Shown piece by piece: positions 11,355 to 20,908 of a stretch of 26,140 bases of DNA (within the stretch, counting starts at the first letter, position 1; the number at the start of each line of letters is the position of its first letter). A program made the translations under genes and the position numbers. The stretch covers positions 1 to 26,140 of the IMG/VR virus record IMGVR_UViG_3300035158_000282. The stretch is one strand, 5' to 3'. A model generated the notes under the pieces. The model was not told the origin of the DNA, did not search any database, and saw only the letters and a program-made list of their open reading frames with translations. The DNA comes from a virus.

Positions 11355-12464
11355 TTATGCAGTGTGGATGTTCTTGAGGATGTAGAAATTCTCAGGAACG
11401 CGAGGACCGCCGTCCACACGCCTGATTCCACGGAAGACTGTCTGGTTCTGCTCGAAGGCATCGGACGCCACATCCGAAGACTTCATGGAGATGCCATCCC
11501 GCTTCTGGACGATCATAAACTCAGACCAATCGGCCAGAACGATAAACGTACGATTAGCAAGCGTGTCACCATCGTAGTCCATGTTCCCAGGGATCTGACG
11601 AGAGTAGTACACAGGGACGCCAAGGAGCGAATCAGGCTCGCCCTTAGTCATGTCGCCCTGCGACCAAATGTGGCGATCATTAGTATCCTTCAACTGTCGG
11701 ATGATACCCTTCATGGTCGGGTTCATCAGCCAAGAAGTATACTCACCACTCACGTTCTCCACAGCCGTCTGGGCGTCGATGAGAGTATCAAAACCGTCTG
11801 CACCATCAAGCTGAGCATTCACGTTAACATCGTTAACCTCGGAGAGATGGTAAATCCCAAGAGGTTCAGTCCCGCCGTCACCAATGAGGAAAGCCTCATC
11901 TTCGGCAAGCGCAAGGACCTTAGCGATGTCGTTCGTAACCAACCTGTCTGCCGCAGGCGTAGAGTCTTCCAGAAGCGTATTCGGGATACGAGCAAATCCT
12001 GCAACCGTCTTCAGGACCAGCTCAATGTCTCCCCAACGCACTTCCTGATCAACATCATCCTCGATGTCTGAATTGTCACCAACCCATGCGTAGTCGGATG
12101 CCTGAGTCTGTCGAGGCATCTGAAGCGTATTGGTATTGGGGAGATTCACGACCTGCGGATTCAGAGAACGGATTACGGCCCGCTTCCTAATCAGCGGGAT
12201 AATCTGCTCCTGAATCTTCGGGTGAACCAGAAGCCCACCTTCCGTACCAACATCCTCAGAGTACTTCATTGCCTCTTCATACAGAGACGCTTCCTTCTTC
12301 GCATGAGACCAATTTCCAGTAGCAACACCACGAAGATACTTCGAGATGCTGATGTGCTCATCATCCTCTGTATCCGAGTTACCACTGGACTTACGTGCAT
12401 TAGCCTCCATCAACGGGTCGAGAACCCCGTGGAGGCTGTCCTTGAGAATATCCTTCAGTTCCAT
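11355..12464 (-). CDS. Major capsid protein, HK97 fold
   Basis: 369 residues. Features of HK97-type capsid proteins are visible: a charged, helical N-terminal region (about 1-75) like a delta/scaffold domain, then VGTEGGLLVHPKIQEQIIPL, the segment around SDYAWVGDNSDIEDDVDQEV and LVLKTVAGFARIPNTLLEDS (typical 'K..g....S.ELl.DS'), and FLIGDGGTEPLGIYHL (typical 'GtG...P.Gi'). The C-terminal half carries LLGVPVYYSRQIP and ADWSEFMIVQKRDGI. ATG 12464 overlaps the scaffold stop (TAATG) with GAGGAGG upstream. With a protease domain encoded two genes upstream, cleavage of the N-terminal region during maturation is expected from the HK97 model, but the site cannot be fixed here. Confidence 0.92.
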   Translation of the reverse strand: MELKDILKDSLHGVLDPLMEANARKSSGNSDTEDDEHISISKYLRGVATGNWSHAKKEASLYEEAMKYSEDVGTEGGLLVHPKIQEQIIPLIRKRAVIRSLNPQVVNLPNTNTLQMPRQTQASDYAWVGDNSDIEDDVDQEVRWGDIELVLKTVAGFARIPNTLLEDSTPAADRLVTNDIAKVLALAEDEAFLIGDGGTEPLGIYHLSEVNDVNVNAQLDGADGFDTLIDAQTAVENVSGEYTSWLMNPTMKGIIRQLKDTNDRHIWSQGDMTKGEPDSLLGVPVYYSRQIPGNMDYDGDTLANRTFIVLADWSEFMIVQKRDGISMKSSDVASDAFEQNQTVFRGIRRVDGGPRVPENFYILKNIHTA

Positions 12465-13120
12465 TAGTCGGAGCCCTCCTCAATAGTTTCTTGGACCGCT
12501 TCCTTGACGGCCTGCGCGATTGCCTGCTTCTGCTCGTCCGTGAACAACTCATCTTCGGAGTCATCTTCAGGGTCTTCCTCGACCTCTACTTCTGGCTCCT
12601 CTGACTTCATGCTCTCAATAAGTGTGAGCAATCCGAGCTTTTCAGCAGCAAGAGCGTCTTCAAGGGTGAGTTCACCCTCTTCCTTCTTAGCGCCTCCAGA
12701 CAGCAATGTAGCAAGACCTTTAGAGATTTCGTCGAGTTTAGCCTCAAGGGCCGCCGTGTCAACTTCCACCTCCATAGTCTTGTCCTCATCGCCAGCCTCG
12801 CCATAGCTCTCGCCATAGCCAGCGGCGCGTGCCAAAACCGCGACTGCCTTCTTCACCTCAGACGGGAGATCGTCAACCCACTTAGACAGAACGCGGAGAG
12901 CATTCTTGATTGCTTCCTTGGCATCGTCCGAAACCTCAGACGCCTTCTCACAATCAGTGAAAGTTGACTCGACCTCATCATCCAGAGGGAAGGCTTCACG
13001 GATTTCCTTTTCGAATTCGTCCATACCTTCCTCCTTTTTGACGTAGAACCACTTTCGATTGGCCGGATTCCGAACCAAACTCAAGATACTAGGTCGAATT
13101 GCTATTAGTTCCATAGCCAT
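12464..13120 (-). CDS. Acidic scaffold-like protein with XkdF-type N-terminal motif
   Basis: About 218 residues. The N-terminus IAIRPSILSLVRNPANRKWF followed by YVKKEEG strongly resembles the 'iSLV..PAN...F.i.K' stretch I associate with XkdF-type prohead proteases, but no protease motif follows. Instead the chain is acidic and helical (EKEIREAFPLDDEVE, SKWVDDLPSEVKKAVAVLAR, a VDTAALEAKLDEISKGLATL coiled coil, then EVEVEEDPEDDSEDE), as expected for an internal scaffold lying just before the major capsid gene. ATG 13120 is preferred because GGAGG is eight bases upstream; the in-frame GTG at 13135 overlaps that site. Confidence 0.7.
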   Translation of the reverse strand: MAMELIAIRPSILSLVRNPANRKWFYVKKEEGMDEFEKEIREAFPLDDEVESTFTDCEKASEVSDDAKEAIKNALRVLSKWVDDLPSEVKKAVAVLARAAGYGESYGEAGDEDKTMEVEVDTAALEAKLDEISKGLATLLSGGAKKEEGELTLEDALAAEKLGLLTLIESMKSEEPEVEVEEDPEDDSEDELFTDEQKQAIAQAVKEAVQETIEEGSD

Positions 13121-13145
13121 ATTACCTTCCTCCACTTAGTAGTCT

Positions 13146-13174
13146 ACTGTATAGCCTAGAGGTATGCAAGTCAA
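13146..13174 (-). promoter_or_regulatory. Candidate sigma-70 promoter for scaffold and capsid genes
   Basis: Minus-strand TTGACT (13174-13169) followed after 17 bases by TACAGT (13151-13146), or after 15 bases by TATACA (13153-13148). It lies in the 50-base gap before the scaffold gene and ends at a position giving a leader of about 20 bases. The match is partial; no experimental support. Confidence 0.4.
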
Positions 13175-16100
13175 GACTCTATTTTTCGTCTCATAACTCT
13201 ACCTTCCCACGAGAAACCTCTAATCTCTTCATTTTTTACTAGCACCCAAACATTAGGATCATTTATTCGAATTGTCATATACCAATCTCCAGCCTTTACA
13301 ATACCCCCTGCTTTTTGAGTATCCTCTTCTGCTTGGAAGCATTCAAGAACAGTTGCACGGAAAAATTTATCGTGATCTGTAGAAAACTTCAGACCATGCT
13401 CCATGAAGTAGTACATGGCATCTCGAATAACCGTTGAGTTTGCCTTCTCGCCATCAGTATCGAAACGATCTGCTTGGTACACGACGCCCCCAACGATTTG
13501 TAAATCTTCGTTCTTAGTCATCATTTTGAAGCCGAGCTTTACGTTAGGAGAATCTTCACTATAGGCAGCAGTCCATATATTGCTACCGGATTCTTCTCGC
13601 GCAATTACAATTGTCTTTTCGCCTTCAAGATCAAACTTCTTGACGCTGGCCGAATCCTCTAATATCTTCACCCCGCCTTCTGCCACAACGTCAGCCCAAG
13701 CAGGTGTCTCCTTTGTCGGGTTGAGCGCGGTACCAGCATCCAGTTCCGACGAATCACTAATACTCCAAAGCTTATCCGTGCCTTCCTCAGACGGGACAGC
13801 CATAACATTTTCTTCTCTTGGATCACCATCCATCTCAAAGTGGTATGTTTTACCACCATCCTTTACGAGAAGATCATATATTTCGGTAGAAGGCCCAAAT
13901 CTAACCACGTACTGGCCTCTCCACCATCTACGAACAAGACGGTACTTACTCTCACTCTTGAACCGGTAGGCGTAGTAGTACTCACCATCAAACACAATAT
14001 TCGAATCTTCAAATACGTCTTCGATCTTACTTGACTTGGATTTTATAAGCCAGTTACCCTCAGCCTTCCGTATGTACCGTCGAAGCTCTACAAGGGGAAC
14101 TGAATCATCAGCAAGAACGAATAGGCTGGCACTCAGGTTATTTTTGATGGTCTCCCTCCAGTCAGGAGACGACATAGGCTCCACGTATGAACTGGACGGT
14201 GGGAGTTCTGGTGCCTGCTTTTTCTCTTCCTCTTCAGGAACACCTAACTCATGCACCTCGAACTCCTTAATCAACTCATCTCGAACACTTTTACGCTTAC
14301 TCTCGTCATCGAATTTCCAGTACTGATATTTCTCTGGAATATTCTTCTTAACATTGGTTGGTAGACAAGAGAAGTCTTTCGGGGGAATCCAATCTTTCTC
14401 TCCACTTTGAAGAACATAAGGTGTTTGCTCTTTCGGCTTCATCATAATCCAATAGAAAGCACTCCGTGGAGTTTCCTCCTCATCACTTGGAGGCAAAACC
14501 TCAGCCTTATTGGATTTTATTGTACTCTCTCGTTGTTCGTTCCAACCAGAAATCTCGTCTTCTTTAGGAGGCGAACTTTCCATATACTGTTCAGCTTTTC
14601 GGTAAGCTTTCCAGTAGGAGGTATCAAAACTCTCATCATCCTTACTCGGAGGCAAGAGAGGGAAATAAACTGATCTCAGAACATCAACTATCTTGGCAAA
14701 ATATTTGAGTAGAGCTTCCATATCCCACTCGCCCCACTCTTCTCCGGCACTCAATTTGGGATACCCGGAGTTGCCTAGGTAGCGAAGATCCGCCAGCAGC
14801 TCAGGCCAGCGAGTCTCCGGATGAGCAAGATCGTAGTCTATCCCTTCCACATTGAACTGCTCGAGGCTAAGTTTCTCAGCATTTGAGAGAGATTGACTAA
14901 TATAACCAGCCAGCCCGTCCCACCAATCTTTCCAATCCGACTCACCATACCACGTTTTACCAGCAATACAGATACGAGGTCGATTCTCCGCACCCATATC
15001 ACACCGAGCATAATAACCGTTATCGGGGGTGTGAAGTGATTTTGCAACAGATTCCGAGAGGCCATCATCGTTAAGACGGATCACAATATAAGTAGGACGG
15101 TCTTCACCGTGGCCCTCACAGCTAGCACGAACCTCAATCAAGTCTATTTCAGATAGGGCGTCCAACCACTCGTCCTTTAGATGTTCATCTACTCTCAAAC
15201 CATTCCAGTCACGTTCTCCATGCTCAGTACGTCCTCTCAACATCTCATCGGGTTCTTCACCATAGACTGTGGTGTAGGCGAGAGTAGGTGAGTTAGTCCA
15301 CTTTGAAGCTTTACGACTTATCTGTCGGAAAATAATACGGCCTTCAAGCGCCTTACCATCGAAGAAGTACTCATGGAAGTAGGGCTTCTGAGCACCGTAC
15401 GCCATTTTACCTTCGTCCACAATATGGAAGACGCCTGGGTACTCCTTGGTGGCACCAACTTCTCCCGCAGGCGAAACCCCTTCAACCTTCAACCATTCTG
15501 AAGGCTCTTTCTTCTTAGGGGCACACCGAATATTTGCACGTTGAATACTCCCGCTTCGAGTCTGTCGTTTATCGAACTCGCCTGTTTTCCAATTGATCTT
15601 GAAGGAGTCCGGATCAGCATCCTCACTTACCGCCTGACTCATAGCTGTAACCGGCTCATCAATCTCACCTTCTTGCTGGTCCATAAGGGTCCAACCAATC
15701 AGGTAATCATTGTGTTCGATCCTCAAATCACCATGAACAGATTTCCCTCGATAGTGATGCTGTACAACATAGTTGTACTCTTTATCGCCGCCGTCAGGCC
15801 AATCTCCATCGGATTTCTGATCTTGAATAGACAAAATACCCTCATCCTCAGCAGCGTCAATCACCGCATCAACTGTGTCGGCTTCCTTCCGTTCTGAAAC
15901 ACCAATGAATCGAGGCACCCAAGCAGTTACATCCACCTGACCATCCTTATCTTCAACATTCACAGTCTCGGCCTCCACCTCGATAATATCGCCCACGTTG
16001 GCTTTAACTTTAGTGGAGAAGGTATAGCCAACATCCTCATACGTTTCGCCACCTACCTCCACAGGTGTGGCGGGGTTTGGAGATTTAATAGCATAGCGAT

Positions 16101-17253
16101 AGTTAAACACACCGTCTGTTTTTGTTTCCTTACGCTCAGTCACTATACCGTGGATGAGGATGTTCTTGTGAAATTTCACAAATGAAGAATAACTCCTTAA
16201 ACCATCAATATGATATTCTCCACCCGCCGTCTTTACCACCACACCTTCAGAACCTTGCTTGTGGGAAAGCTCTTTCGCAACTCTTACGAGCTCCTCATCA
16301 TCTAATACCTTCTTACTCGAAACAAGATTCAGGCCACTTTCCGGCTTGCCAAGAGTGGACTGCGGGAAGTTATACTTCTCCAGCCTCCCACGTCGGTCGA
16401 TGAAATTAACCTTGTGGAGATCCTTACCATCCTCAAACAGAATATCGAAAACGTTTGCAACGACTCCAGACTCATCGGGTTCACTGTGAGAATGGATGTA
16501 CCCGGCAACATCCTCTCGATCTAAATGTTCGTCACCTTTCCAAACCTCGATCTCGGCAGCAAGAGTTAGTGTAGATGGTTTGTTATCGCCCCTCAAGTTC
16601 TTGAGAGACTTTGAAAGCTCAGGGAAACGCTCAGTACACTCCGTACCATCATCCGTGACAATTCGAACTTCGCCAGATGCCTTCATCAAAATACAATGAA
16701 CCCCATCATACTTCTTCTCAACGTAGGCGGGGTAGTCGCCAACAAAATCCGCAAGATTCTCCACTGACATCCGTTCCTTCACCTCGGCTGCGCGAGCTGG
16801 TTTCATAGGATAGAAGAATTTACCCGCAGCAATGCGATCCTTACGCTTCGAAGTCTCGGCCTCCTCTAGAGGATCGGCAGATTTCTTTCGAATAATGTCA
16901 GTGTCTTGAACCTTACGATATTCGAACTCATCCTTCGGAACCACCACGAGATCGGCTGCCGGAACATGATCCCAGTTTGGTCCTACTGATGCTGGAATAA
17001 AGTGAACTTTCTTATCCGAATGCTCTTCAAATACGCGCTGCACCTTCATCATGAGGTTTCTATCTAGCTTGAGAACAATACCCTCCCCACCAGATTCCGC
17101 TCTCACAACGATATCAAGATCGTCCGGATCATCAGTTCCGTAGACGGAACTACCTGTTATGCTGAGAAAATCATGGATAAGGACAAAAGGCTTAGTCTTC
17201 TTCAGGTTCTCCGTCAGATTCCGAAACTTCTCCTTCTCTGGACGACTGGACAT
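13171..17253 (-). CDS. Giant fusion: nucleotidyltransferase, ATP-dependent DNA ligase, LigD-like 3'-phosphoesterase, XkdF-like prohead protease
   Basis: 1360 residues. (1) About 25-110: polymerase-beta-like nucleotidyltransferase, GSSVYG (35-39 region) and DLDIVV with acidic D45/D47. (2) About 140-360: ATP-dependent DNA ligase, motif I KYDG with nucleotidylated Lys K181, FDILFEDG (269-276), EGVVVK (336-341), and SFVKFHK with K360/K363. (3) About 364-452: OB-fold-like (STKVKANVGDIIEVEAETV, VPRFI). (4) About 491-645: YNYVVQHHYRGKSVHGDLRIEH, like the LigD 3'-phosphoesterase 'FVVQkH.ar.lHyDlRLE'. (5) About 650-1215: unrecognised, charged and Trp/Tyr-rich. (6) About 1228-1355: XkdF-like protease, with H1294 (TDHDKF), E1304 and S1348 (GFSWEG) as likely catalytic residues. 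The slot between portal and scaffold/capsid is that of a prohead protease. The start overlaps portal by 62 bases; GAGAGG is seven bases before the ATG. Confidence 0.8.
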   Translation of the reverse strand: MSSRPEKEKFRNLTENLKKTKPFVLIHDFLSITGSSVYGTDDPDDLDIVVRAESGGEGIVLKLDRNLMMKVQRVFEEHSDKKVHFIPASVGPNWDHVPAADLVVVPKDEFEYRKVQDTDIIRKKSADPLEEAETSKRKDRIAAGKFFYPMKPARAAEVKERMSVENLADFVGDYPAYVEKKYDGVHCILMKASGEVRIVTDDGTECTERFPELSKSLKNLRGDNKPSTLTLAAEIEVWKGDEHLDREDVAGYIHSHSEPDESGVVANVFDILFEDGKDLHKVNFIDRRGRLEKYNFPQSTLGKPESGLNLVSSKKVLDDEELVRVAKELSHKQGSEGVVVKTAGGEYHIDGLRSYSSFVKFHKNILIHGIVTERKETKTDGVFNYRYAIKSPNPATPVEVGGETYEDVGYTFSTKVKANVGDIIEVEAETVNVEDKDGQVDVTAWVPRFIGVSERKEADTVDAVIDAAEDEGILSIQDQKSDGDWPDGGDKEYNYVVQHHYRGKSVHGDLRIEHNDYLIGWTLMDQQEGEIDEPVTAMSQAVSEDADPDSFKINWKTGEFDKRQTRSGSIQRANIRCAPKKKEPSEWLKVEGVSPAGEVGATKEYPGVFHIVDEGKMAYGAQKPYFHEYFFDGKALEGRIIFRQISRKASKWTNSPTLAYTTVYGEEPDEMLRGRTEHGERDWNGLRVDEHLKDEWLDALSEIDLIEVRASCEGHGEDRPTYIVIRLNDDGLSESVAKSLHTPDNGYYARCDMGAENRPRICIAGKTWYGESDWKDWWDGLAGYISQSLSNAEKLSLEQFNVEGIDYDLAHPETRWPELLADLRYLGNSGYPKLSAGEEWGEWDMEALLKYFAKIVDVLRSVYFPLLPPSKDDESFDTSYWKAYRKAEQYMESSPPKEDEISGWNEQRESTIKSNKAEVLPPSDEEETPRSAFYWIMMKPKEQTPYVLQSGEKDWIPPKDFSCLPTNVKKNIPEKYQYWKFDDESKRKSVRDELIKEFEVHELGVPEEEEKKQAPELPPSSSYVEPMSSPDWRETIKNNLSASLFVLADDSVPLVELRRYIRKAEGNWLIKSKSSKIEDVFEDSNIVFDGEYYYAYRFKSESKYRLVRRWWRGQYVVRFGPSTEIYDLLVKDGGKTYHFEMDGDPREENVMAVPSEEGTDKLWSISDSSELDAGTALNPTKETPAWADVVAEGGVKILEDSASVKKFDLEGEKTIVIAREESGSNIWTAAYSEDSPNVKLGFKMMTKNEDLQIVGGVVYQADRFDTDGEKANSTVIRDAMYYFMEHGLKFSTDHDKFFRATVLECFQAEEDTQKAGGIVKAGDWYMTIRINDPNVWVLVKNEEIRGFSWEGRVMRRKIES

Positions 17254-18409
17254 TGTTTTTCCTCTCGCCTAGGTAGTGATCGTTGCCCCCATTCTCATAG
17301 GGTTCTCCAAGTCCGGTGACTTTCATGAACTCATTCGGTGTCAAACTGCCTCTGTCAAATTGGTCTGAGAGAGCATTCACAAGTGACTCAAAATCGAGCA
17401 GACCTATTGAAGTCTTATCGAACTCAAACCTACCTACACCTTCACCATAGCGAGGCATAAGTTGTCTATTGATTGCATCTTCAAGCTTTATCAGATGTGG
17501 AACGACTGTCAAGGTATAGAAAGCCTTAAGCTGCACATCATATGATGCATAACGAGCCGTTTCAACTAATCCTGCTAAGGCAGGTGGGACTCCCAATACC
17601 GATAGTTTTGCTTGTGTGATAAAGTCCATAAAGTCCGTCAAACCGCTCTCCTTCGGAGGTCGCGCAATATCCTTCCAGTCGATACCGAAGGGGAGTAGAG
17701 GAGTCTCATTGGAGTCTTCACCAGGGGACTGCCACTTCTGTTTCAGCCGCTTTGAAGCAGGTTCACTTATTCGAGACTGAGTTGTAAGGAAGCCCCTCGA
17801 TACACCATACCGCTTCAGGTAAGACCTAATCCATCTCCAACCATACTTATCAGCATTTACGATGTTGGAGAGAGGCTTAACTGATGGCATACCACGAAAA
17901 TCATTGGTGGGGTTAAAGTGTTTTGTATGAACCACCTCATCCTTATTGAACGTTTCCTTCTCCATACCAGCAGAGAACTCGTAATGAGATATTCTAGTAT
18001 TCTTATCATTCAACATAAGCTTTACACGGTCAGGTCTCATGTTGTAGAGTTCTCTAGGCACATTGAGTTTATCTGGAACAATCTCCCAGAAAAACTCTCC
18101 ACCTAATGAGAGATAGCATATAGTAGACTCAAAGAAATCGAATGAGCCCTCATCTTCATTGGGAGCTCTGAACAAGCTTAGTATAGGGTGTTCGATCTCC
18201 TCACCTTCCGGCCCCACAACACGACGCTCAGCCATTGCGCACGACCAAGCGATGAGACGCACAGCTCTTGTGATATATGGGTCGGTTTCGTATAGCTGTA
18301 AAAAAGACAACACACCGACAGGCGGTGGAATAGACGAACTCCCAAACAGACTCCCCAGTTTGATTGGGAGAGTTGCGGAAGCTTTACCAGCCCAATCGAA
18401 AAGTTTCAT
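17192..18409 (-). CDS. Portal protein, HK97 family
   Basis: 405 residues. The N-terminal part (LQLYETDPYITRAVRLIAWS, EHPILSLFRAPN, GSFDFFESTICYLSLGGEFF) and the C-terminal part (VLGVPPALAGLVETARYASY, LTVVPHLIKLEDAINRQLMP, SLTPNEFMKVTGL) follow the HK97/lambdoid portal pattern closely. The dodecameric portal sits at one capsid vertex, is the DNA channel and docks the terminase. The gene follows the terminase by 15 bases with GAGG before ATG 18409, and its last 62 bases overlap the start of the giant fusion gene. The C-terminal tail (residues about 380-405) is acidic and probably disordered. Confidence 0.93.
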   Translation of the reverse strand: MKLFDWAGKASATLPIKLGSLFGSSSIPPPVGVLSFLQLYETDPYITRAVRLIAWSCAMAERRVVGPEGEEIEHPILSLFRAPNEDEGSFDFFESTICYLSLGGEFFWEIVPDKLNVPRELYNMRPDRVKLMLNDKNTRISHYEFSAGMEKETFNKDEVVHTKHFNPTNDFRGMPSVKPLSNIVNADKYGWRWIRSYLKRYGVSRGFLTTQSRISEPASKRLKQKWQSPGEDSNETPLLPFGIDWKDIARPPKESGLTDFMDFITQAKLSVLGVPPALAGLVETARYASYDVQLKAFYTLTVVPHLIKLEDAINRQLMPRYGEGVGRFEFDKTSIGLLDFESLVNALSDQFDRGSLTPNEFMKVTGLGEPYENGGNDHYLGERKNNVQSSREGEVSESDGEPEED

Positions 18410-18424
18410 TTCCTCAACCTCTCT

Positions 18425-19645
18425 TTACAGTAAGTATATATCGAGTTGCCTATCATCTTCAAGTCCCATAACGAGATAACGCAGACAGTCGAGTAGGTGA
18501 TGAGGCGTCGATTTATCCGGTTTATCGTCTTTAGGCTTATATTTGTAGGTTGCGGCTTCAGAACGGAGATTCGGAAATAAATCTCGAGGAATTACGAGAC
18601 GCTCATCCGCAATCATCTCATTGATTTTGAGAATACCAGGACGAATGTCATTCACAGCCGGTCTTACATCCAAACCCAACGCCGAAAGCTCCTCCCTCTC
18701 ACGACGCGCCGCTGGGTCCATATAATAAGTGGTATCCATATCGAGGAACTCGAGAAGGTCCCTCAATAGCATATCTGATTTGTATAACTCCCGTCTAAAA
18801 TGAAGCTTGCCGTCATCGCCATAGATAGCAGTTAGTGCAGCAAACGGATCGCTCATTCCTGGGTCAACCGATCCTATACGATAATCATCTGCGTGAACCT
18901 TGTACGGATCCCCACTCGTCACACAATTTTCAAATCGAGGGAGTACTAGACCCTCCATACGCTCAAACACACCACGGTAACGCATGTTGAATTCACGAGG
19001 GTCAAGTACTTTCTCCATTCGTTTGTACTCGTCCATAGAGTACAGGGGATTGAGGACGGAAGGAAATCGTATAACGTGATAGGTTTCTGGCTCCTCTCCT
19101 TCCTCTAGTGTTATATGATTCCCATTCTCATCAAATTGATCAATTCGTGCATAGTCTTGGAACTCAAGCTTGAGCCAATTCTCTGCATAAGGTGTTGTAC
19201 TAATCAGAATCTTACCTTCACTCAACCCCACACGTGACTGTAGCACAACCCAAGCCCACCTTGAGTACTGTCCTGCTTCGTCCGCCCATGCCCCCTGAAG
19301 GTGGACGGACTCGATGGAGTGTGGTTTATCGGCAGAACGGAAATAGACCCGGCCTCCATCAGGCAACAGATAGATATTGGGCTGTAACTTCAACTCCCCT
19401 TCCAATTCCGTACCTTCGAAGAAGTTAAGGAACTCTTTACGCGATGCGTCTTCTAGGATCTTATAGGTCGGCGCAACCACCATCCACTCTTTCCCTGGGT
19501 GGTTTGAGATTTCCCTGTACAGCCATTTCGGACCGAACCACGTCTTGCCACTGCCGGTCCCTGCAATCATCGCTACGAAACGGGCCTCAGACTGTAAAGC
19601 AGCCCACTGGCCCGGATGTAGCTGAACTTCTTTCTTTTTCTTCAT
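18425..19645 (-). CDS. terL: Terminase large subunit (packaging ATPase/nuclease)
   Basis: 406 residues. Walker A GTGSGKT at 29-35, Walker B-like GAWADEA at 118-124 (D122, E123), and ISTTPYAENW at 148-157 as coupling motif. The C-terminal RNase H-like nuclease has GSVDPGMSDPFAA (D261), YYMDP (D310) and HHLLDCLRYLVMG (D386) as the three expected acidic residues. It is the motor that pumps DNA into proheads and cuts it. I chose ATG 19645: a candidate promoter would start RNA near 19664, leaving a short leader with GGGAAGGGGG. A TTG at 19657 (four extra residues) directly abuts that purine run and is less likely. Confidence 0.93.
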   Translation of the reverse strand: MKKKKEVQLHPGQWAALQSEARFVAMIAGTGSGKTWFGPKWLYREISNHPGKEWMVVAPTYKILEDASRKEFLNFFEGTELEGELKLQPNIYLLPDGGRVYFRSADKPHSIESVHLQGAWADEAGQYSRWAWVVLQSRVGLSEGKILISTTPYAENWLKLEFQDYARIDQFDENGNHITLEEGEEPETYHVIRFPSVLNPLYSMDEYKRMEKVLDPREFNMRYRGVFERMEGLVLPRFENCVTSGDPYKVHADDYRIGSVDPGMSDPFAALTAIYGDDGKLHFRRELYKSDMLLRDLLEFLDMDTTYYMDPAARREREELSALGLDVRPAVNDIRPGILKINEMIADERLVIPRDLFPNLRSEAATYKYKPKDDKPDKSTPHHLLDCLRYLVMGLEDDRQLDIYLL

Positions 19646-19670
19646 GTAGAATCTCAACCCCCTTCCCGAG

Positions 19671-19864: not shown

Positions 19865-20908
19865 CTATTCTCCCAAACGAGAGTGAACTCCAGAAGACTC
19901 GTCTGCGACCACATAGAGATACTCTTTGTTCCGCAGGTGACTGACTTCGCCTACTTTCTCGCCCTGAGGGTTGTGGATGCCTATCTGGGCACCAACGTAG
20001 CGCTTATAGTCGTTCTCGAGGATTGTCACCTCACCTCTTTCGCCGAGCAGACTCTCCATCTCCTCCCGGCTGAAATACCCCTCGTTATTGAACGACACGA
20101 CCAAGACTGGTGCGCTCACGGCATGGACCACTTTCTGCATCGCACGCTGGCACTGACGCTTAGAGTTGAAGGGACTTCTCCTTTGTCGGCAATCGACGCG
20201 TTTGCAGGCAACGCCGTACACTTCGGGTTTGTCCCATCGGACCAGAGTCTCCCAGACGTGGTAGTTGCCGAGGTAGGAGTGCTGGTTGTAAGGAGGATCA
20301 AGATAGGCCACGTCGCCTCTGAGCTCGTGGGCGGCGTCCAGGGCGTCCATGCAGTAGGCCGCCCCTTTTCCGTTCTGAGCCTGCGGCAGAACCTGTGGCA
20401 CGCGCAGCCTCAAGTCATTGAAAGAGCGGGAAGCCCACTGCTTGAGATACGCCATCTGTAGACCGGTCGTTGAATCAACACGGTCAGCAGCCTCCATGAG
20501 CGATGTAAGCAAGACGGCCTTGAGCTCCGGCTCCAGCCCCTTGCGCTCGATGGCTTCCCGAATAGCGTCTACCCGTTCCCCATTCTTCGGTTGTATGTAA
20601 CGCGAACGAACGCAGAAGGTCTCGGTGAAGTACCCGGGATTGCCCGGCAAGGCATTCAACTCGCGAACGAGCTTCTTTGCGTCGTCAACGACATCCTCCC
20701 GGTCAGCTTGCACGTAGCACGTGGCTAGGACGTGCGCGTAGGCGTTGTGGTCATTTGCGAGCACACGGTAGCCGGCGCGTTTGAGCGCGTGTCCCACGCG
20801 GGATGTGCCGGAGAACAGGTCAATGACCGTTCCGGCATTGGGCAGGGCTTCCACTGTCCGGAGGATGACCGGGAGGAGCTTCCGCTTGGAGCCGATGTAC
20901 TTGATCAC
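19865..20908 (-). CDS. DNA N6-adenine methyltransferase, D12 class
   Basis: 347 residues. The N-terminus MIKYIGSKRKLLP is the family's SAM-site opening; VIDLFSGTSRVGHALKRAGY (29-48) is the FxG SAM-binding motif, and VAYLDPPYNQHSYLG contains catalytic DPPY (204-207). It transfers a methyl group from S-adenosylmethionine to adenine in a short DNA site, which may protect phage DNA from host restriction or mark it; the target site cannot be read from sequence. GTG 20908 has GGAGG ten bases upstream. No cognate restriction enzyme is present. The gene looks visibly richer in G+C than neighbours on both sides, which suggests recent acquisition. Confidence 0.9.
   Translation of the reverse strand: MIKYIGSKRKLLPVILRTVEALPNAGTVIDLFSGTSRVGHALKRAGYRVLANDHNAYAHVLATCYVQADREDVVDDAKKLVRELNALPGNPGYFTETFCVRSRYIQPKNGERVDAIREAIERKGLEPELKAVLLTSLMEAADRVDSTTGLQMAYLKQWASRSFNDLRLRVPQVLPQAQNGKGAAYCMDALDAAHELRGDVAYLDPPYNQHSYLGNYHVWETLVRWDKPEVYGVACKRVDCRQRRSPFNSKRQCQRAMQKVVHAVSAPVLVVSFNNEGYFSREEMESLLGERGEVTILENDYKRYVGAQIGIHNPQGEKVGEVSHLRNKEYLYVVADESSGVHSRLGE

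Follow-up and report, generated by a model that had tools for sequence, protein, structure and literature searches.

In a 26,140-nucleotide stretch of viral DNA (IMG/VR virus record IMGVR_UViG_3300035158_000282, positions 1 to 26,140; hereafter the window), a single frame of 1360 codons, starting with ATG and running on the minus strand from 17253 to 13171, joins a predicted set of DNA repair enzymes to a prohead protease. Sequence comparison gives good support for a product that repairs DNA strands or ends and belongs to the head-assembly module of a tailed virus. We further favour, with a probability of roughly one half, the reading that it acts on DNA ends or nicks and is incorporated into the procapsid via the protease. 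An earlier note, made from the sequence alone, had placed a 1360-residue frame at 13171-17253 without giving its strand, and the frame is present as described.

The identity of the second domain as an ATP-dependent DNA ligase is strongly supported, with nick sealing as its predicted activity. The Pfam family DNA_ligase_A_M matched residues 163-350 above cut-off (E = 9.6e-19), and the predicted model of the ligase and OB fold resembled archaeal ligases (Foldseek E = 6e-19, Z = 25), with residues 124-460 aligned to 2cfm at a Z of 25, covering both the adenylation domain and the OB fold. The ligase residues K181, E234, E336, G337, K341 and K360 were unchanged in all 44 aligned members. This alignment, as well as the 46-member alignment of the first phosphoesterase, was built without the rows of ANMV-1, a GenBank virus with a related protein. 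The domain at the N-terminus is probably a Pol-beta-type nucleotidyltransferase, which we grade as probable and not certain given the comparison of its family profile with PF01909 proteins (probability 72%, E = 3e-5; negative controls 0.1–0.2%). The Pol-beta G[GS]...DxD motif was found in the alignment of this domain, and the strand-helix order of the minimal fold was seen in its model at moderate confidence. The third catalytic carboxylate position (D101) is kept in members near the window protein and substituted in distant ones.

Two LigD-type phosphoesterase copies lie further along the chain, the first assigned by profile and the second by a direct structural match. The family profile of phosphoesterase 1 matched cellular LigD phosphoesterases using hhalign (probability 95%, E = 3e-8), and its model is mostly above 90 in predicted local distance difference test (pLDDT) score; a Pfam search of this domain gave no match, and Pfam LigD_N had none in the window. 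The HxRGxSxHxDxR signature (H500, R502, H507, D509, R511) is invariant in 46 of 46 aligned members, and H500, H507, D509 and R511 are the counterparts of His42, His48, Asp50 (Mn site) and Arg52 of the Pseudomonas LigD; the ANMV-1 protein has a Met at the position equivalent to Arg511. The model of phosphoesterase 2 matched 3p43 with a Z of 15.1 (root-mean-square deviation of 2.3 over 116 residues), and its family profile matched LigD phosphoesterases by hhalign with an E of 1.2e-11. Matches to this second copy took up the VIA list of structural neighbours, in which phosphoesterase 1 is therefore not represented. The metal-binding residues of LigD phosphoesterases are absent from phosphoesterase 2, and we regard it as a second, putatively catalytically empty copy. 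At the C-terminus, Pfam Peptidase_S78_2/XkdF (PF14550) matched residues 1243-1352 (E = 7.4e-14), with H1294, E1304 and S1348 conserved across the aligned fused relatives.

These comparisons bear out what the earlier note had read from the letters, namely an ATP-dependent ligase with an OB fold, a LigD-like 3′-phosphoesterase, an XkdF-like protease at the C-terminus and, as a probable assignment, a polymerase-beta-like nucleotidyltransferase. All residues that it named are correctly placed (K181 in KYDG, EGVVVK at 336, FVKFHK at 358, VQHH/HGDLR at 497-511, and H1294, E1304 and S1348). A part of 560 residues that it had left unassigned turns out to hold phosphoesterase 2 and a conserved element; the description still fits the insert at residues 650-930, the model of which has a pLDDT mostly below 50.

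The fusion to the protease is not peculiar to the window. An XkdF protease is in-frame in the relatives L003, L012, L021, L034, L036, L037, L052, L055, L060 and L065, as well as L072, and the fused members occupy three places on the phosphoesterase 1 tree, the starred branches of which require at least two changes. The window is placed apart from the main fused clade, and the L053/L055 clade shows an alternative domain order (nucleotidyltransferase, phosphoesterases, ligase, protease). The sequence ISLVRNPANRKWFYVKK, with which the next gene in the window starts, is internal to the protease gene in unfused relatives, suggesting that the catalytic half of the protease joined the repair enzyme in the window and the remainder stayed with the scaffold gene. 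We also noted a match to PHROG 1530 (‘DNA methyltransferase’), which was confined to the protease part; this was not accepted as a precedent for a methylase fusion. A Lactococcus phage protease of this family is an ordinary head gene.

Relatives were reached by profile searches. Single-sequence searches of viral contigs with either the window protein or the ANMV-1 ligase gave no matches; an alignment of the two retrieved ten viral contigs, and a nine-sequence alignment subsequently retrieved 77 viral loci and 11 loci in metagenome-assembled genomes (MAGs), of which 54 are non-redundant. Among GenBank viruses, a relative was detected in ANMV-1 only, and no description of a ligase-phosphoesterase protein family was found in the searchable literature. 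The MAG titles, which may be erroneous, name Methanosarcinales, Methanophagales, Archaeoglobales, Thermoprotei or Euryarchaeota in eight of 11 cases, the others being Omnitrophota, Planctomycetota and ‘bacterium’. An archaeal TATA-binding protein was found in none of 21 large records, so the observation that the relatives are mostly found beside archaea rests on the MAG titles and ANMV-1.

Scored with local profiles for six segments, the relatives share a core set of nucleotidyltransferase, ligase, OB fold, phosphoesterase 1, the 70-residue element and phosphoesterase 2. Among the non-redundant loci, the ligase was found in 47 of 54, the nucleotidyltransferase in 42 and phosphoesterase 2 in 47; ligase and phosphoesterase share a single frame in 25 and lie in adjacent genes in others. 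Several relatives carry further enzymes in the same frame, including a D12 N6-adenine methylase (L012, L014, L021, L036, L065 and L066), a metallo-beta-lactamase (MBL)-fold hydrolase of the RNase Z/PhnP type (L013, L031, L041, L043 and L066), and, at the N-terminus of a ligase-phosphoesterase frame (L032:6669-7986), a PNKP-like HAD 3′-phosphatase (PNK3P, E = 4e-6). Enzymes of these kinds commonly accompany the processing of DNA ends and the protection of DNA.

Intein-like insertions occur in the ligase frame of L067, L071, L073, L076 and L089, at a single site just before the motif-V lysine, and in phosphoesterase 1 of L062, L073, L076, L077 and L089, at three distinct sites in its most conserved stretches. 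The L067 insertion shows Hint/LAGLIDADG features, and matching empty sites are visible in the close relatives L066 and L067. Inteins tend to occupy the most conserved motifs of essential enzymes, and their presence at conserved ligase and phosphoesterase 1 motifs therefore gives independent support for living enzymes.

Several loci displayed other features. At L011:8692-10804, the ligase gene is split by a 2.1-kb insertion with reading frames, in which no Rfam intron was found at the gathering threshold. A stretch of ~550 residues with a PEGA domain lies ahead of the nucleotidyltransferase at L008:5739-7800, a locus otherwise near L007. At L009:3975-5708, the nucleotidyltransferase-ligase is fused to a start with a weak likeness to C5 cytosine methylases, and the gene preceding this frame shows a weak match to a queuine transferase PHROG. 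QueC/QueE-like genes adjoin the frames of L003 (138-755) and L005 (3080-3778 and 4696-5304), and the L003, L005 and L034 frames have an N-terminal DSGGF motif resembling tRNA-guanine transglycosylase/DpdA; profile comparison of these N-terminal parts was not significant for that identity, so that a DNA 7-deazaguanine enzyme tied to the capsid is a lead only.

The position of the gene ties the protein to the viral head. PHROGs labels around the fused frame include terminase, portal, major capsid protein, head-tail adaptor and tape measure, and the end of the portal gene shares 62 bases with the start of the fused frame. The usual order in relatives is terminase, portal, repair gene, protease/scaffold and capsid; together with the PHROGs neighbours, it confirms the place in the structural block, between portal and scaffold, that the earlier note had given. 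The portal is upstream in 42 of 90 loci and among the next three downstream genes in none. Downstream sequence is available for 80 loci; in 48 of these 80 the nearest sizeable gene on that side resembles a protease, and in 60 of the 80 one of the next three genes is for a protease or capsid protein. These gene-order counts include near-copies, and their labels, which were not checked individually, come from iterated profiles for which PHROG-named genes served as seeds. Given that the capsid proteins of the family viruses belong to several different PHROGs, the position of the repair gene outlives changes of head type. The features of the window are collected in Table 1.

Table 1. Predicted domains of the fused frame and neighbouring genes in the window.
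Feature	Residues	Coordinates	Strand	Basis or remark
Fused frame	1360 residues	13171..17253	minus	Order: nucleotidyltransferase, ligase, OB fold, phosphoesterase 1, insert, conserved element, phosphoesterase 2, XkdF protease
Pol-beta-type nucleotidyltransferase (probable; GSSVYG, DLD)	15-106	16936..17211	minus	Family profile and model
ATP-dependent DNA ligase adenylation domain (Lys181)	138-350	16204..16842	minus	Pfam, fold, invariant motifs
Ligase OB fold	354-453	15895..16194	minus	Family profile and structure model
LigD-type phosphoesterase 1 (H500, H507, D509, R511 kept)	490-647	15313..15786	minus	hhalign, invariant columns
Window-specific insert (~280 residues)	650-930	14464..15306	minus	Missing from most relatives
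Conserved element (~70 residues; TPYVL..W.PP...LP...YW)	932-999	14257..14460	minus	Present in nearly all relatives
Phosphoesterase 2, without metal-binding residues	1101-1234	13552..13953	minus	Fold and hhalign
XkdF-like prohead protease (H1294, E1304, S1348)	1243-1352	13198..13527	minus	Pfam PF14550
DNA methyltransferase, upstream of terminase		19865..20908	minus	phrog_27806, E 5e-38
Terminase large subunit		18425..19657	minus	phrog_2, E 2.5e-32
Portal protein		17192..18409	minus	phrog_12, E 1.6e-56
Scaffold-like gene, begins with ISLVRNPANRKWFYVKK		12464..13135	minus	No PHROG match
Major capsid protein		11355..12464	minus	phrog_10, E 7e-57

Elsewhere in the window, a minus-strand frame at 2-1672 is open at the contig end and has a long Thr/Pro/Ala-rich low-complexity tail (TTTTTAPTTT repeats).

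From the sequence, a repair enzyme is encoded between the portal and protease/capsid genes and is here a single chain with the XkdF protease. Prohead proteases go in with the scaffold, and the fused chain would be drawn into the procapsid with it; given the fusion to a procapsid-acting protease and the precedent of polyvalent proteins (discussed below), it is reasonable to infer this entry. The protease would then cleave itself off during maturation, and the repair part would stay near the DNA, where 3′-OH ends may be produced by phosphoesterase 1, a nucleotide added or filled in by the nucleotidyltransferase, and nicks or genome ends sealed by the ligase, either in the head or upon entry into the next cell. 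Use on the ends of the incoming genome is one option among several. We offer only tentatively, and with some doubt, the fuller picture of a widespread, Ku-free end-joining or nick-repair machine inside the particles, delivered and released by the protease, which would heal and seal the incoming genome early in infection in tailed viruses that infect anaerobic archaea and, in some cases, bacteria, and be tuned in individual lineages by MBL, PNKP-type or methylase domains.

A number of observations weigh against the favoured reading. Ku was not found in 48 records, and we know of no virion proteomics for any family member. The protease is a separate gene in most relatives and lies 21 kb distant in ANMV-1, so that its covalent linkage is not required. 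Seven of the 54 non-redundant loci have no ligase match, though such domain absences are lower-grade evidence given that contig ends cut some loci. Of 17 large records with a ligase match, 15 showed no ligase besides that of the head module, which also suits a general viral ligase; in two large records a second, ordinary ligase (547-582 a.a.) lies elsewhere. Lastly, His84 and Tyr88 of the Pseudomonas LigD phosphoesterase are each essential (PMC8656161), and the corresponding phosphate-site positions in the window protein are Glu583 and Trp587. Phosphoesterase 1 is thus, as judged from its alignment, a divergent LigD-type homologue with an intact metal site and an altered phosphate pocket; it may act on another substrate or with another geometry, or may have lost its activity.

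The strongest rival, although unlikely in our view, is that the enzyme repairs nicks, 3′ ends or modification-linked breaks in the cell before or during packaging, such that the terminase gets intact DNA. The protein would then not be in the virion, and its link to the head genes would be spatial (portal/terminase) and one of timing. This would suit the gene order nearly as well as use on incoming ends, and it is favoured by the frequent upstream portal, by the Dam methylases in the frame of relatives, and by ANMV-1, in which the portal neighbour is kept but the protease neighbour is not. However, it leaves unexplained why fusion recurs to the prohead protease and not to the portal or terminase. 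Less probable again is a general viral replication/repair ligase in a late operon, with the protease, self-releasing, fused by a neutral joining of neighbours. Its frequent standing as the sole ligase in a record and the adjacency of ligase and protease genes in unfused relatives would fit; the other ordinary ligase in two records, the stable position in divergent viruses with unlike heads, and a duplicated, empty phosphoesterase that such a ligase would not need all speak against it.

We consider it highly improbable that these domains now serve a structural role in the head (in contact with scaffold or portal), with enzyme activity secondary or lost. The catalytically empty phosphoesterase 2, the two LigD residues missing from phosphoesterase 1, and the persistence of the protease-adjacent phosphoesterase part where the ligase was not found are compatible with such reuse, but the ligase active-site columns and H500, H507, D509 and R511 are invariant in 44–46 divergent members. 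An assembly or annotation fusion, which the earlier note had raised, is scarcely credible and was rejected because like in-frame fusions without stops, some with a different domain order, occur in independent viral contigs from other metagenomes.

Phage DNA ligases are usually viewed as replication enzymes. The conserved portal-to-protease position and the protease fusion in this family suggest that the viral life cycle includes a stage at which packaged or incoming DNA is repaired; if true, a repair kit for DNA may travel within the particle.

The closest known counterpart is the ‘ATP-dependent DNA ligase’ of ANMV-1 (AJP62006, KP703175), which is homologous over residues 1-1228 with an identical domain order. 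Its gene lies directly downstream of the portal (L001 1913-3193; Phage_portal_3, E = 3e-22; annotated as a MutT-like hydrolase), and the protein stops where the protease of the window starts, its own prohead protease being the distant separate gene mentioned above. The words ligase, capsid and prohead are all absent from the text of the ANMV-1 paper. The gene after the ligase in ANMV-1 (L001, KP703175, 5868-9368) encodes a 1166-residue Cys-rich protein. Compared to XkdF-type prohead proteases (PF14550), the window protease likewise has the catalytic His, Glu and Ser and lies beside scaffold and major capsid genes, but differs in having repair enzymes fused N-terminally and its last segment in the next gene.

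With the LigD of bacterial and archaeal non-homologous end joining (NHEJ), which acts with Ku, the window protein shares the pairing, for the healing and sealing of ends, of an ATP-dependent ligase with a LigD-type phosphoesterase, and to this extent the likeness to bacterial end joining seen in the earlier note stands. It fails in that the LigD polymerase domain, of the archaeo-eukaryotic primase type, had no Pfam or NCBIfam match in the window protein (NCBIfam LigD models matched its ligase stretch only), that the two essential phosphoesterase residues are replaced, and that Ku was found in none of the 48 records, many of which are fragments. Given the polymerase type, these two residues and the Ku result, we have not filed the protein as a LigD; it has instead a Pol-beta-type nucleotidyltransferase, two phosphoesterase copies, an altered phosphate pocket and a gene in a viral head module. 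Phages that use NHEJ in infection are known, as a passage in PMC7719229 (citing Pitcher 2006) describes for the mycobacteriophages Omega and Corndog. These provide Ku and borrow the host LigD, whereas here the ligase and phosphoesterase are viral and Ku was not found.

The broader comparison is with polyvalent proteins (Iyer et al. 2017, PMC5512222), which, like the window protein, are large multi-enzyme chains of viruses with a portal and terminase. In these, an assemblin-like peptidase is invariably C-terminal, Pol-beta nucleotidyltransferases and adenine methylases are among the domains, and DarB and DdrB of P1 are located in the phage head (PMC5512222). The window protein unites several enzyme domains of unrelated kinds in a single chain, in a virus with portal and terminase, and fits this concept on every point that can be tested by sequence. 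The text of that paper names no DNA ligase, and its end-processing phosphoesterase is of the 2H family, not the LigD type (PMC5512222); the DNA ligase and LigD-type phosphoesterases are new relative to that text, and the best reading is a new class of polyvalent protein. Archaeal elements are described as poor in polyvalent proteins, with those >1000 a.a. almost all bacterial (PMC5512222), and the family would thus extend the idea both to DNA strand repair and to archaeal viruses, where such proteins are reported to be scarce.

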